Shown here: piece after piece, positions 4,128 through 61,323 of the stretch
How the letters are laid out: each line of letters opens with the position of its first letter
Position numbering within the stretch: position 1 is the first letter of the stretch
The notes under the pieces: generated by a model
Database searches by the model: none
What the model was told of the DNA's origin: nothing
What the model saw: the letters and a program-made list of their open reading frames with translations, nothing else
Made by a program: the position numbers and the translations under genes
DNA from: Spirulina major PCC 6313
GTDB lineage: Bacteria; Cyanobacteriota; Cyanobacteriia; Cyanobacteriales; Spirulinaceae
Direction of reading: 5' to 3'
DNA: 64,000 nucleotides
Assembly (NCBI RefSeq): GCF_001890765.1
Contig: NZ_KV878783.1
Span: 3,438,771 to 3,502,770, forward strand

Positions 4128-4217
4128 GGGATGAACAAAAAAAAGCAGGGACGATGCACTATGTTGTCTTAACGCATCTGAAATTTATAGAACCTACTGG
4201 CGTGACCCATATTAATC

Positions 4218-4283
4218 GGTGGGTTACGGCGGATTGCTGGGTTGCCGTGATAGTAGGATTTTAATCCGCCTAACCCACCCTAC
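4218..4283 (-). repeat. 66-bp dispersed palindromic element, copy A
   Basis: This is one of four 66-bp copies in the window and runs in the opposite orientation to the other three. On the plus strand it starts with GGTGGGTTACGGCGGATT and ends with AATCCGCCTAACCCACC plus CTAC. The ends are nearly perfect inverted complements, so the whole element can fold into one long hairpin. It lies between two minus-strand genes, downstream of the DUF928 gene. Confidence 0.85.
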
Positions 4284-4346
4284 AATAACTACAATAAAGT
4301 AGCATTTTAGCTGTGCCATGATCGTAGGGTGCTGTGGTAGGAACGG

Positions 4347-12426: not shown

Positions 12427-13581
12427 ATGAGCGGCGGGATCTATCTCATTCAAGGAGACAACCAATTGGTTGCCATGGAAGAAAAACCCTACGATTCAGA
12501 AGCCTTGCTGCAAGAACTCCTGGAGCAATACCCCAATCTCCTGGGGGTTGATCAGGCGAATCATCACTTCAGTTCGCAATGGTTATTGATTAAACGCACC
12601 GGCAATATTCCCACCGATGACATGGGGGTCGAACGGTGGTCACTCAATCATCTGTTTCTGGACTATCAGGCCATTCCGACCTTGGTGGAAGTGCAGCACG
12701 AAGGCGAACGCCGTCCCCGCCGCGAAATCATCGGGCAAATGTTAGACTATGCCGCCAATGCGGTGGCCTATTGGCCCGTTGAGTCAATCTTGGATCAGTT
12801 TGAAGGGAATTGTCGCCGCCAAAACCGCGATCCGGAGCAGGTTTTTGAAGACTTCCTGGGGGAAAATGCTGATGAAGAAAAGTTTTGGCAGCAGGTGAAA
12901 ACCAACCTTCAGGCGGGTAAAATCCGGCTGGTGTTTGTGGCGGATCACATTCCTCCGGCGATGCAGCGGGTGGTGGAGTTTCTCAACAAGCAGATGGACC
13001 CGGCTGAAGTCTTGGCGGTGGAAATCAAACAATACATCAGCCCGGAAAATGGTTTAAAAACCCTGGTATCCAAAATCATCGGACAAACCGCCGAAGCTCA
13101 ACAGAAAAAAGCAAGCACCACCCGCGAGCGTCGTCAATGGGATAAAGCCTCATTTTTGGGCGAGTATGCGGCTCGATATGGGGAGGATGAAATGGCGTTG
13201 GTGCGGGAACTCTACGATTGGATTGGCTCCCATGCGGACGATCTGTATATTCAATGGGGGACGGGGGATGCCTATGGTGGCTTTGCGGCTCGGCTGACCT
13301 TTGCCTCGCCCTTGGGGGAACTGTTTGCGGTGGGGATTAATGGCACGCTGCAAATCGCGTCGGAATTATACGCGGCTACACCTCCGTTTAATCAAGAGGC
13401 GGAATGGCATGAACTGCGCAATCGCTTGAGTGCGATCGGGCTGGCTTTACCGACGAATCCGCTGGAGCGACGGTTACCAAATTTTCAACTTTCGACGTTA
13501 CCGGATGAAGATGCCCTTGATCCGGTGTTAGATATGTTTGATTGGGTCTTGTCCAAAGTGAAGAATGCGGCCAGTCGTTAA
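12427..13581 (+). CDS. Hypothetical protein with PD-(D/E)XK nuclease-like N-terminal domain
   Basis: This 384-residue soluble protein begins with a region resembling NucS/DUF91-type nuclease domains: LNHLFLDYQAIPTLVEVQ, then RREIIGQMLDYAANA. In many relatives the strand reads VEVK; here it is VEVQ, so the usual catalytic lysine position is changed and activity is doubtful. The middle is helical and charged (residues about 215-245). The C-terminal part, with DDLYIQWGTGDAYGGFAARL, resembles the DUF4268-like regions found next to such domains, but I am not certain. It stands alone, 127 bp after dapF. Confidence 0.65.
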   Translation: MSGGIYLIQGDNQLVAMEEKPYDSEALLQELLEQYPNLLGVDQANHHFSSQWLLIKRTGNIPTDDMGVERWSLNHLFLDYQAIPTLVEVQHEGERRPRREIIGQMLDYAANAVAYWPVESILDQFEGNCRRQNRDPEQVFEDFLGENADEEKFWQQVKTNLQAGKIRLVFVADHIPPAMQRVVEFLNKQMDPAEVLAVEIKQYISPENGLKTLVSKIIGQTAEAQQKKASTTRERRQWDKASFLGEYAARYGEDEMALVRELYDWIGSHADDLYIQWGTGDAYGGFAARLTFASPLGELFAVGINGTLQIASELYAATPPFNQEAEWHELRNRLSAIGLALPTNPLERRLPNFQLSTLPDEDALDPVLDMFDWVLSKVKNAASR

Positions 13582-15450: not shown

Positions 15451-15487
15451 CCCTACTGCCGTAACACAGCTAAAATAAGGCTTTATT

Positions 15488-15553
15488 GTAGGGTGGGTCG
15501 GGCGGCTTAAACTCCCACTATCACTGCAACCCAGTAATCCGCCGTAACCCACC
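15488..15553 (+). repeat. 66-bp dispersed palindromic element, copy B
   Basis: It begins GTAGGGTGGGTCGGGCGG and ends AATCCGCCGTAACCCACC, exactly 66 bp like the other three copies. It lies 37 bp after the metallophosphoesterase stop codon. Confidence 0.85.
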
Positions 15554-15597
15554 AATTAACTTGTGCCACGGCATGACGAGAATTGTGCATCTCGTAG

Positions 15598-20202: not shown

Positions 20203-20635
20203 GAAATTATGTTGCACAGGGGTTAGATAAAACAGGGCTAGGCCCAAATGTAGCGTTTACCGTGGAATGGGTCAGCAATGCAGCTACATTAACTACAGAA
20301 TGGCGGCAGCATCGCGTCAAATCCTGATCGAGCCAGGAATTATGCACCATGTCAACGCTGAGCATTCGTTCAAAGACACATACTTGTTCTATCGGTTTTT
20401 TGCTGATGAAGTCTAGTGTCTTGTCTAGCTTAAAAAGGTGAGTTGTTATCCAGAGGGGTGAGCGGAGCCGAACCCCGGAGCACCAAACTTCGACTTCGCT
20501 CAGTCTTCCAGTTACTTGCCATCTGAGGCTAGACAGTCCACTAGTGCAGAGTCAAGAGTTAAGCTTCGGATCGTCTTGAATGTCCAGCGCTCAAGGTGAC
20601 GGTGCATTACGCTTCGCCAACAGAATCTTACTGCC
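20203..20635. other. Gene-free stretch before the tandem arrays
   Basis: I see no credible gene here. An open frame on the minus strand (20512-20730) overlaps the 25-bp repeats and has no family features. The stretch holds the argB leader and scattered repeat-like words such as TTCGACTTCGCTCAG. Confidence 0.5.
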
Positions 20636-20750
20636 GGGCACGATGGGAATAACGACCAACGGGCACAATGGGGATAACACGCAGCGGGCACGATGGGGAT
20701 AACGACCAACGGGCACAATGGGGATAACACGCAGCGGGCACGATGCCCGC
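20636..20750. repeat. 25-bp tandem array ending in a perfect 7-3-7 hairpin
   Basis: Units start at 20636, 20661, 20686 and 20711, with a partial unit at 20736. Odd and even units differ slightly (GGGCACGATGGG and GGGCACAATGGG), giving a 50-bp higher-order period. The array ends in the hairpin GCGGGCA-CGA-TGCCCGC at 20734-20750, so the units look like serial copies of the left arm and its flank. Confidence 0.85.
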
Positions 20751-20780
20751 ACTCCTTAAATCCTTGGATATGACTGGAGT

Positions 20781-21008
20781 GGGAGCGTCTCGCTCCCTAG
20801 TGGTTCAATCGCGTCTCGCTCCCTAGTGGTTCAATCGCGTCTCGCTCCCTAGTGGTTCAATCGCGTCTCGCTCCCTAGCGATTCAATCGCGTCTCGCTCC
20901 CTAGTGGTTCAATCGCGTCTCGCTCCCTAGTGGTTCAATCGCGTCTCGCTCCCTAGTGGCTCAATCGCGTCTCGCTCCCTAGTGGTTCAATCGCGTCTCG
21001 CTCCCTAG
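20781..21008. repeat. 26-bp tandem array starting in a perfect 7-3-7 hairpin
   Basis: Eight full 26-bp units run from 20785 to 20992, followed by a 16-bp partial unit. Each starts GCGTCTCGCTCCCTAG. Unit 4 has CGATT and unit 7 has TGGCT in place of TGGTT. The array begins at hairpin GGGAGCG-TCT-CGCTCCC (20781-20797), and the units repeat its loop and right arm plus 10 bp. No unique spacers separate the units. Confidence 0.9.
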
Positions 21009-21011
21009 CCA

Positions 21012-21077
21012 GTAGGGTGGGTTGGGCGGCTTAAAATCCTGCCATCACTGCAATCTAGCAATCCGCCGTAACCCACC
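21012..21077 (+). repeat. 66-bp dispersed palindromic element, copy C
   Basis: It begins GTAGGGTGGGTTGGGCGG and ends AATCCGCCGTAACCCACC. It starts 3 bp after the 26-bp tandem array and ends 20 bp before the gdhA stop codon, in its 3-prime flank. Confidence 0.85.
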
Positions 21078-21097
21078 TGTTCAGATGTGTTTTGCCA

Positions 21098-22417
21098 CTA
21101 CGGGGTTTGGTTGTAGTAGTCTTGGGTTCCTTTTGCGTCGAGGGCTTGGCCGAGGCGGTTGAGGGCGTGGACGTAGGCGGCGGTGCGCATGGAGATTTTG
21201 TGATCTTGCGCGATCGCCCAAGTGGCTTTGGCTTCGGCGACGATGCGGGTGGCGAGGCGATCGCGCACTTCCTCCGCCGTCCAATACAAGCCATTGCGAT
21301 TTTGCACCCATTCAAAATAACTCACCGTCACCCCGCCCGCATTGACGAGAATATCCGGAAACACCAAAACCCCGTGGGCATCGAGAATCTGATCCGCTGC
21401 GGAGGTTGTCGGCCCATTCGCCACCTCAAAAATGTAGCGGGCGCGGATATCCGCAGCATTGGCGGCGGTGATTTGGTTTTCCAGGGCAGCGGGGATCAGC
21501 ACATCCACATCGAGCTTCAGCAGGTCTTCGTTGCTGATGATCTCCTGCTCGCCCATGTCGCAAACCGTGTCATGGCAGTAAAGAGACTGGATGCTTTGGC
21601 GATCGCGCTTATAGGAACGAATTTTCGGAATATCGAGGCCCTGGGGCGCATAGATCCCCCCTTGGGAATCGCTCACCGCCACAATGCGATAGCCCGCCCC
21701 ATCGAGCAAAGAGGCCAACGCTGCCCCCGCCTTCCCAAAGCCTTGGATCGCCACGGTGGTATTACTGGGATATTGCTCGAACAGGGGCAACAGCGTTTTA
21801 ATCACATTAAACGCACCCATGGCCGTCGCGGTGTCGCGCCCTTCACTGCCACCGAGGGCGAGGGGTTTCCCCGTCACCACGCCGGGACTGGCTTTGCGTT
21901 TGATAATCGAATATTGATCCATCATCCAGCCCATCACCATGGCGTTGGTGTAGACATCAGGGGCGAGGATGTCAATATCCGGGCCGATGAAGTCAGCGAT
22001 CGCATCCACATACCCCCGGCTCAACCGCTCCAACTCCTGGCGTGACAATTCCTTCGGGTTGACCGTAATCCCCCCCTTCGCCCCCCCAAAGGGCAAATTT
22101 AACAACGCACATTTAAACGTCATCCAAAACGCCAAGGACTGCACCTCATCCAACGACACATTAGGGTGATAGCGCACACCACCCTTCCCCGGCCCCCGCG
22201 TATCGTCGTAGCGCACCCGATACCCCTGGAACACCCGCAGCGAACCATCATCCATCCGCACCGGAATCGAAACCGTCAAACCCGCCTTGGGATACTTGAG
22301 GCGATCGAGGGCATCTTTCGATAACGTCACATACTGTAATGCCTTTTCTAAACGGCTACTGGCATCACTCAATAACGATAAAGGAGTGGGGTGGGAAACC
22401 GGAGTGGGAATCGTCAT
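21098..22417 (-). CDS. gdhA: Glutamate dehydrogenase (Glu/Leu/Phe/Val family)
   Basis: This 439-residue enzyme reversibly aminates 2-oxoglutarate to glutamate. The substrate-binding and catalytic segment includes KGGVRYHPNV and LNLPFGGAKGGI with the catalytic lysines. The dinucleotide fold has VAIQGFGKAGAA. The length and the lack of an N-terminal extension fit the cyanobacterial hexameric enzyme; NADP use is likely but not provable from these motifs. The ATG at 22417 lies 51 bp from an NtcA-like palindrome, suggesting nitrogen control. Confidence 0.92.
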   Translation of the reverse strand: MTIPTPVSHPTPLSLLSDASSRLEKALQYVTLSKDALDRLKYPKAGLTVSIPVRMDDGSLRVFQGYRVRYDDTRGPGKGGVRYHPNVSLDEVQSLAFWMTFKCALLNLPFGGAKGGITVNPKELSRQELERLSRGYVDAIADFIGPDIDILAPDVYTNAMVMGWMMDQYSIIKRKASPGVVTGKPLALGGSEGRDTATAMGAFNVIKTLLPLFEQYPSNTTVAIQGFGKAGAALASLLDGAGYRIVAVSDSQGGIYAPQGLDIPKIRSYKRDRQSIQSLYCHDTVCDMGEQEIISNEDLLKLDVDVLIPAALENQITAANAADIRARYIFEVANGPTTSAADQILDAHGVLVFPDILVNAGGVTVSYFEWVQNRNGLYWTAEEVRDRLATRIVAEAKATWAIAQDHKISMRTAAYVHALNRLGQALDAKGTQDYYNQTP

Positions 22418-26808: not shown

Positions 26809-26824
26809 AGTTAAGGTCGTTAAA

Positions 26825-26890
26825 GTAGGGTGGGTTAGGCGGCTAAAATCCAGGCGATGACTGTAACCTAGCAATCCGCCGTAACCCACC
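26825..26890 (+). repeat. 66-bp dispersed palindromic element, copy D
   Basis: It begins GTAGGGTGGGTTAGGCGG and ends AATCCGCCGTAACCCACC. It fills the gap between the ileS stop and the ATL start and would lie in the ATL leader if the two were co-transcribed. Confidence 0.85.
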
Positions 26891-61259: not shown

Positions 61260-61276
61260 GCGGGCAAGATGCCCGC
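61260..61276. repeat. Perfect 7-3-7 hairpin, single copy
   Basis: GCGGGCA-AGA-TGCCCGC, framed by GTA and ACTAC. The arms are identical to those of the hairpin that ends the 25-bp tandem array at 20734-20750. Here no expansion has occurred. Confidence 0.75.
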
Positions 61277-61323
61277 ACTACAACTCAGAAGGCAGAATAG
61301 GCCTGCTTGATGAATAATCTAGG

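Follow-up and report, generated by a model that had tools for sequence, protein, structure and literature searches.

Half-hairpin tandem arrays prefer the untagged side of REP hairpins in Spirulina major and other cyanobacteria

REP elements are very short palindromes, a type of sequence for which mobility has been established. Here, we describe tandem arrays in Spirulina major PCC 6313 that repeat one half of such a hairpin together with its flank and that prefer the side of the element facing away from its tag, a preference that is well supported and that recurs across the hairpin family in several cyanobacteria. We started from a contiguous stretch of 64,000 nucleotides (henceforth termed the window) within a 5.05-Mb assembly of two contigs. 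The origin of intergenic tandem arrays in bacteria is for the most part reconstructed in retrospect. In the arrays reported here, the seed and a preferred direction of growth can both be read and recur in several genomes, and repeats of the whole hairpin are balanced between its two sides, so array birth becomes a concrete, testable reaction.

The window locus is a spacer between two minus-strand genes, gdhA (21098–22417; Glu/Leu/Phe/Val dehydrogenase domains) and argB (19312 to about 20190; amino acid kinase domain), whose product we take, from its sequence, to be acetylglutamate kinase. In this spacer, 3' of gdhA and 5' of argB, lie two adjacent tandem arrays, and a preliminary description of the DNA was correct in placing a perfect hairpin with 7-bp arms and a 3-nt loop (7-3-7) at the inner end of each. 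Hairpin A (20734–20750, minus strand) reads GCGGGCA-CGA-TGCCCGC on the plus strand and GCGGGCA-TCG-TGCCCGC on the minus strand. Hairpin B (20781–20797, plus strand) reads GGGAGCG-TCT-CGCTCCC, a sequence that has 15 exact copies in the S. major genome. Each hairpin carries a tag on the side facing the other: that of A lies at 20751–20755 (ACTCC on the plus strand, GGAGT on the minus strand) and that of B at 20776–20780 (GGAGT, plus strand). Between the two tags runs an inner spacer (20756–20775), and the gap from hairpin to hairpin amounts to 30 bp (20751–20780) instead of the 31 bp reported earlier. At the 3' foot of hairpin B stands a CT that is a candidate cleavage site (20797–20798, plus strand), matched by the CT at the 3' foot of hairpin A (20733–20734, minus strand). 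The pair is near certainly a tail-to-tail dimer of REPs of the GTAG-tagged type with inward tags (ACTCC...GGAGT). DNA folding returned hairpins A and B as drawn, at -8.3 and -7.2 kcal/mol, respectively, with 1 of 200 shuffles equally good in either case; folded as a single strand, the dimer forms three hairpins, the middle one from the paired tags.

Both arrays extend from the untagged (3') side of their hairpin. Array A (20635–20733, minus strand; whole extent 20635–20745, overlapping hairpin A) is composed of loop, 3' arm and flank. Its 25-bp units, from which it had been named a 25-bp array, are of two alternating types, and a 50-bp unit describes it better (98% matches at 50 bp versus 84% at 25 bp). 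Array B (20798–21008, plus strand; whole extent 20785–21008) repeats the 26-bp unit GCGTCTCGCTCCC + TAGTGGTTCAATC in 8.6 copies with 96% matches. The statement that one array repeats the left arm and the other the right arm holds on the plus strand; seen from their own tags, however, both repeat the 3' arm. Elsewhere in the window, a single unexpanded REP of the same family occupies 61260–61281 on the minus strand (GTAGT-GCGGGCA-TCT-TGCCCGC, with the CT foot and no array). It had been equated with hairpin A at 61260–61276, which is right as to arms and family but not as to the loop, AGA instead of CGA. Two other repeats were observed around the locus. An element of ~140 bp at 20410–20550, MITE-like by eye, has copies of 96–98% at four other places in the genome, and a ~90-bp repeat, GTAGGGTGGGTT...CCGTAACCCACC, is found at 4195–4288 (minus strand), 15483–15573, 21012–21100 and 26811–26890, one of these copies directly following array B, with more copies in the genome.

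Beyond the window, the family has a recognizable consensus: a tag G(T/G/C)(A/C)GT, a covarying 7-3-7 stem, a loop TCT (or TCG), and CT at the 3' foot. When sites were chosen by tag, 5' arm and loop only, the 3' arm was a perfect complement in 54 of 72 S. major sites, with one mismatch in 12 more, and in 239 of 265 Roseofilum sites, with one mismatch in 19. The stem covaries as CG/TA/GC at position 2, AT/GC at position 4 and AT/TA/CG/GC at position 7, and the dinucleotide at the 3' foot is CT in 61 of 66 (S. major) and 252 of 258 (Roseofilum) cases. Counts within S. major come from 864 kb, made up of the window and 40 stretches at even spacing. In this sample, hairpins with a 3-nt loop are overrepresented (145 hairpins versus 63–112 at other loop lengths from 0 to 12), and the commonest 4-mers before 7-3-7 hairpins are TAGT (39) and GAGT (15), followed by CTCA (9) and by TCGT (7, tied with others). 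The window by itself is not enriched in 7-3-7 hairpins (8, with counts of 4 to 10 at the remaining loop lengths between 0 and 20); since its loop-3 count lies within the range of other loop lengths, general hairpin enrichment was rejected as support. The 864 kb contain 71 singly tagged hairpins (loops 3–6), and a tail-to-tail partner lies within 80 bp of 35 of the 94 tagged 7-3-7 hairpins found with one mismatch allowed. Searching the genome with the window region retrieved 27 places in S. major, and 12 of the 17 loci listed show, by eye, a facing hairpin pair, CCCGCACTCC - ~20 bp - GGAGTGGGAGC or relatives thereof; in two Roseofilum species, the facing pair matched at least 118 stretches. Attempts to find empty sites for L063 and L002 aligned only one flank, or placed the flanks on different contigs. 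Whole dimers also occur in tandem: at G000:C2:416332–416937 (L005, L008; G000 being the S. major genome), seven tail-to-tail REP dimers of ~86 bp each follow one another.

To compare the two sides of tagged hairpins, we used a symmetric test that scored the untagged side when the 3' arm plus 6 nt recurred 14–60 bp off on that side without a full hairpin, and the tag side when the 5' arm did likewise. Loci found by resemblance to the window arrays (L002–L027) were left out of the rates in this test and in the first scan. Half-hairpin arrays lay on the untagged side of 11 and on the tag side of none of the 71 tagged hairpins in S. major; the corresponding counts were 10 and 0 of 257 in Roseofilum (among the matches listed, comprising 118 loci plus L326), and 0 and 0 of 21 in G008, G011 and G024 together. 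Seventeen chosen loci in seven relatives, enriched by having been picked for similarity to an array-containing query, gave 5 and 0 of 35 hairpins, all five in G037, G007 and G035. Other search designs agree in direction. A looser scan counted 11 untagged-side and 0 tag-side cases among 125 hairpins in S. major, 9 and 2 among 319 in Roseofilum (among the matches listed), and 0 and 0 among 72 in other relatives, and its two tag-side matches (L160, L216) are not REP hairpins. The first scan had yielded 9 and 0 of 67 in S. major and 9 and 1 of 204 in Roseofilum (among the matches listed), where one match per side, at L161 on the tag side, is a CCCCCTT hairpin outside the family.

Related arrays are not independent cases, and the 11 array-bearing hairpins of S. 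major reduce, when grouped by eye, to 7 array lineages, including the two of the window. Counted by lineages so grouped, the preference is 20 to 0 with the chosen loci included (p = 2e-6) and 13 to 0 without the chosen loci and the window (p = 2e-4). Cases occur on both strands, so that direction follows the element, independent of the chromosome strand. The earlier reading of a fixed direction of expansion was therefore partly right, in that growth prefers one side, with the qualification that this side is set relative to REP polarity. Among untagged hairpins, half-hairpin arrays on either side were found in 4 of 219 in S. major, 9 of 234 in Roseofilum (among the matches listed) and 1 of 100 in others. 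Tagged hairpins thus stand out in S. major (11 of 71 versus 4 of 219; Fisher p = 6e-5 by hairpin, and p = 0.004 after collapse to 7 lineages). In Roseofilum, tagged (10 of 257) and untagged hairpins (9 of 234) bear arrays at the same rate among the matches listed, the untagged ones being mostly other repeat hairpins, and there tagged hairpins stand out by direction only, not by rate.

A flank-seeded scan, in which a 12-nt seed beside the hairpin is extended towards it, does not presuppose where a repeat joins the hairpin. Considering the first copy only, it covered 358 tagged perfect 7-3-7 hairpins (61 from S. major, 268 from Roseofilum and 29 from the chosen loci). Joints inside the hairpin, with 7–16 shared bases, numbered 23 on the untagged and 3 on the tag side (Roseofilum part among the matches listed; p = 9e-5 by hairpin), divided into 8, 11 and 4 versus 0, 1 and 2 for S. 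major, Roseofilum (among the matches listed) and the chosen loci, respectively. Repeats of the whole hairpin, which run through hairpin and tag, provide a built-in control: they are balanced at 56 to 53, and hence the scan itself has no side bias. Ends in the tag region were 5 to 5, and repeats with 0–6 shared bases 23 to 11. By locus, as judged by eye and without the window and the chosen loci, joints inside the hairpin stand at 12 to 1 (p = 0.003). The three on the tag side (L206, L380, L379) were inspected by eye: one is a full hairpin that has decayed, one is almost a full hairpin, and one has its loop inverted, so that none is a clean 5'-half array.

Where the arrays join their hairpin is less uniform than the side on which they lie. 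On the untagged side, the flank-seeded scan places 23 joints in the flank or 3' arm, 7 in the loop, 11 in the apical and 5 in the basal 5' arm, 5 in the tag and 56 beyond it, and because joints are spread over flank, arm, loop and tag in this way, the apex is not a unique joint. All 20 arrays that we tabulated have their joint 0–7 nt upstream of the 3' arm, 12 in the loop and 8 in the four bases of the 5' arm nearest the loop; these 20 include two same-lineage pairs (L003 with A, L002 with B) and two arrays from L162. As our definition of a half-hairpin (3' arm kept, 5' arm with at least 3 mismatches) nearly forces this range, we have withdrawn the apex joint as independent evidence. The joint of the arrays is not at the CT foot, a point against the mechanism preferred below. 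Periods of the tabulated arrays are 18–27 bp in 16 and 37–43 bp in 4, and the unit consists of the loop, the 3' half-hairpin and a tail of ~13–17 bp. The variation of tails between loci suggests repeated origins of the arrays in place. Copied lineages also exist, namely A-like arrays in L003, L010, L014, L015 and L018 and a B-like array in L002. The dimer at L140 bears half-hairpin arrays at both outer sides, as in the window.

A wider survey placed these arrays among all tandem repeats of the S. major sample. In the 864 kb, 82 merged arrays with periods of 12–120 were found, 52 of them mostly in long frames, and 3 of those 52 have a tagged hairpin. The other 30 are intergenic-like, meaning that frames of 150 codons cover no more than half of their length; a tagged hairpin is absent from 18 of them, 5 border a single one, and 7 carry at least two. 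Among the 12 intergenic-like arrays with a TRF score of at least 200, 10 border or contain the tagged hairpin of the family; of the remaining two, the units of one include a CCCCCTT hairpin, and the other has none. A genome check for hairpin-bordered arrays, which the preliminary description had called for, turned up further cases that border a single hairpin, at L063 (12518–12776; 20 bp x 12.9), L079 (14627–14694), L081 (7349–7525) and L065 (15618–15666). At L063, the 20-bp array, whose units are 99% identical, occupies one side of a REP pair, and on the other side lies a 74-bp x 4 array (12794–13087) that itself contains half-hairpin units. The proposal that compact hairpins seed arrays therefore holds insofar as arrays bordered by single hairpins recur, but A and B belong to one REP dimer and are not independent seeds. 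Nor is compactness sufficient: half-hairpin arrays were found at 0 of 41 tagged-hairpin entries in G008, which are mostly of another REP family and in which nested stems are counted twice, and likewise at 0 of 8 in G210 and 0 of 1 in G021. The one exception among the samples of G008, G011, G024, G281, G210 and G021, which contain few hairpins of the window family, is an odd array at a HIP1-like palindrome, one in 15, in G281; no comparable arrays were seen otherwise.

Very small hairpin repeats have reportedly been described in cyanobacterial DNA before, as the small dispersed repeats (SDR) of Nostoc (Elhai et al., 2008). The closest relatives of the window family that we found are in the GTAG superfamily, which is described (PMC3733652) as comprising short palindromes with a small loop, an unpaired GTAG-type tag and complementary stem changes; stems measure 6–13 bp, loops mostly 2–4 nt, TT dimers have the tags inside, clusters are reiterated in tandem with flanking DNA, and GTAG-12, -15 and -16 are cyanobacterial. 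Hairpins A and B agree in tag, 7-bp stem, 3-nt loop, covariation, and occurrence as dispersed copies and dimers. They differ in that GGAG is outside the tag variants listed in PMC3733652 (GYAG, GYRG, GTRG, GTMG, GTGG) and in that the dimer tags can pair in our fold. Moreover, the reiterated units of the superfamily, as described there, are singletons or dimers, whereas the window arrays consist of half-hairpin units on one side. Similarly, in Pseudomonas fluorescens SBW25 inverted REP pairs (REPINs) are the replicative unit, form tandem clusters and are associated with RAYTs (PMC3116915); the ordered clusters reported for it consist either of near-identical REPINs together with their flanks or of REPs at even spacing, unlike the half-hairpin units of the window. 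In the text of the literature searched, we found no description of one-sided half-hairpin arrays at REPs.

In other bacteria, a RAYT gene bracketed by inverted REPs has been termed a REPtron (PMC8266576, PMC2817692). These papers also report a perfect 8-bp palindrome around a 3-nt loop for group 3 REPs of S. maltophilia, TnpAREP enzymes that cut at CT, with both REP sides cut in some assays (PMC8266576), and a proposal that the RAYT nick leaves a priming 3'-OH, made for whole BIME modules (PMC2817692). Such an arrangement exists in the window family. A locus of Roseofilum acuticapitatum (L326) encodes a RAYT of 149 aa (NF047646, 102 bits; cut-off 80) bracketed by GGAGT-GCGAGCA-TCT-TGCTCGC hairpins, and in the relative G037 a RAYT at L379 (94.7 bits to NF047646, 76% identical to the L326 RAYT) has GGAGT-GGGAGCG-TCT-CGCTCCC hairpins on both sides. 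In the family, a CT stands beside the hairpin as a candidate cleavage site, and half-hairpin arrays of the same build as A and B lie beside both genes. When 39 genomes were searched with these two proteins, matches above 60 bits appeared only in G037, G025, G031 and G033. In G031 (L398), a 180-aa open frame contains the cognate-lineage RAYT as two separate matches, and the stretch of the frame that divides them holds REP-like hairpins (by eye); the flanks have one strictly tagged hairpin and, on the other side, a GTGGT-tagged hairpin (by eye). The gene in G025 (L397) contains an internal stop, with no strictly tagged hairpin in the 3.4 kb covered there, and G033 has a fragment. A weak match at L338 was rejected as a RAYT by eye.

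The genome of the window differs from this picture, as no cognate-lineage RAYT was found in it at E <= 1e-6 with a two-member alignment; the Roseofilum RAYT alone gave a best E of 0.026, to a RAYT of another lineage. It would nevertheless be wrong to regard S. major as devoid of any RAYT, since two RAYT-like genes were found with proteins of relatives, both of which a Pfam search at E <= 0.001 had missed. These genes, at L319 (1096–1680) and L320 (1126–1653) (G000:C2:1531348 and 4493362), are each surrounded by GTAG hairpins of their own type, unlike the A/B family, and each frame has one own-type hairpin inside it, past the HxH motif and at a similar position in both. The window REPs are probably either orphans of a lost enzyme or served in trans.

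The explanation that we consider best, if at slightly under even chances, combines the REP dimer with a founding fold-back duplication whose direction is set by the REP, followed by ordinary lengthening. A REP strand would fold into its hairpin, and a 3' end in the tail would slip back and re-prime opposite the hairpin, giving a second copy of the tail and of part of the hairpin. Direction would come from the asymmetry of the REP, as tag and far-side CT are common to A and B; the simplest form would be a RAYT-type nick at the CT on the untagged side, leaving a 3'-OH. Once two units are present, slippage or unequal recombination could lengthen the array, up to ~13 nearly identical units. Fork direction alone is not the cause, because array A grows to the left and array B to the right at one locus. 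The published REPtron model invokes rolling-circle amplification of whole BIME modules and does not predict one-sided half-hairpin units (PMC8266576, PMC2817692). Against the duplication with REP-set direction stands S. major itself, where arrays are common, no cognate-lineage RAYT was found as searched, and the two RAYT-like genes go with different hairpins; for the same reason, present growth in S. major would be of the second-step kind. The enzymatic step is also the part we doubt more: that a putative RAYT nick on the untagged side drives one-directional tandem copying of host DNA plus half a REP appears rather unlikely, given half-hairpin arrays at non-REP hairpins, the spread of joints and the missing RAYT. 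If it were true, REPs would be polar seeds of tandem repeats besides being mobile elements, and one-sided amplification of flanking DNA might be an added outcome of REPs beside RAYT genes.

Pure replication slippage at any stable compact hairpin, where the nascent strand folds back and re-primes without a transposase, is a possible alternative to which we give appreciable but minor weight. It would accommodate the half-hairpin arrays at non-REP hairpins, e.g., those of the CCCCCTT type, the joints at many places with no single cleavage site, and the 99% identical array at L063 (12518–12776) in a genome where the searches found no cognate RAYT. Being symmetric, however, a hairpin by itself would be expected to slip both ways, which is at odds with tag-side counts of 0 of 71 and 0 of 257 (the latter among the matches listed) and with joints at 23 to 3; the tagged hairpins of S. 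major, moreover, exceed the untagged ones (11 of 71 versus 4 of 219, p = 0.004 by lineage). The asymmetry might instead reflect survival or detection, with tag-side duplications breaking the dimer or the tag so that copies are not propagated or recognized. Because the tag side is often the inside of a dimer, dimer loss could mimic a side preference: 9 of 10 Roseofilum hairpins with untagged-side arrays are in dimers (among the matches listed), the inner spacer is short, and orienting hairpins by an intact tag favors intact tag sides. We nonetheless judge this effect improbable as the explanation. Tagged S. major hairpins without a dimer partner have 6 untagged-side and 0 tag-side arrays among 59, from ~3 lineages of which L063+ continues from a dimer, whole-hairpin repeats are balanced at 56 to 53, and locus-specific tails suggest growth in place. 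Partnerless Roseofilum hairpins show 1 and 1 of 97 (among the matches listed), the tag-side one being the non-REP L160, and across samples the partnerless array-bearing hairpins form ~4 lineages (L063+, L076, L079, L194), all untagged-side.

Two further accounts concern the window locus itself, and we assign very little probability to either. Selection could have favored repeated 3' arms with a use in the gdhA-argB spacer, e.g., as alternative transcript partners of a single 5' arm; the spacer follows gdhA and precedes argB in the direction of transcription, and its sequence would allow any of the 3' arms to pair with the one 5' arm. Yet many other loci share this build with tails of their own, and in relatives (39 genomes searched) gdhA matches begin no earlier than query position 1113 (window 21112), the array region being matched only as dispersed copies elsewhere; argB, in the relatives with a gdhA match that were checked, is on a different contig or far from gdhA. 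It is just as hard to credit that array length is an assembly artefact. Array lengths are known from the assembly alone, but that assembly comprises two contigs, the arrays of 111–224 bp are shorter than ordinary long reads, and the same build is present in other genomes.

Other element types were considered for the locus. A CRISPR array was rejected, as the 25- or 26-bp units repeat in full and no unique spacers separate them. The end of an IS200/IS605 element was rejected as well, because the only Y1_Tnp match of the family search, at L098 in S. major, goes with different hairpins (CCCGTTT arms); this match is accompanied by a leftward ORF that we took, by eye, for tnpB. Partial-hairpin arrays were also observed at CCCCCTT-type hairpins of a different repeat family, at L083 (16035) and L162 (2564).
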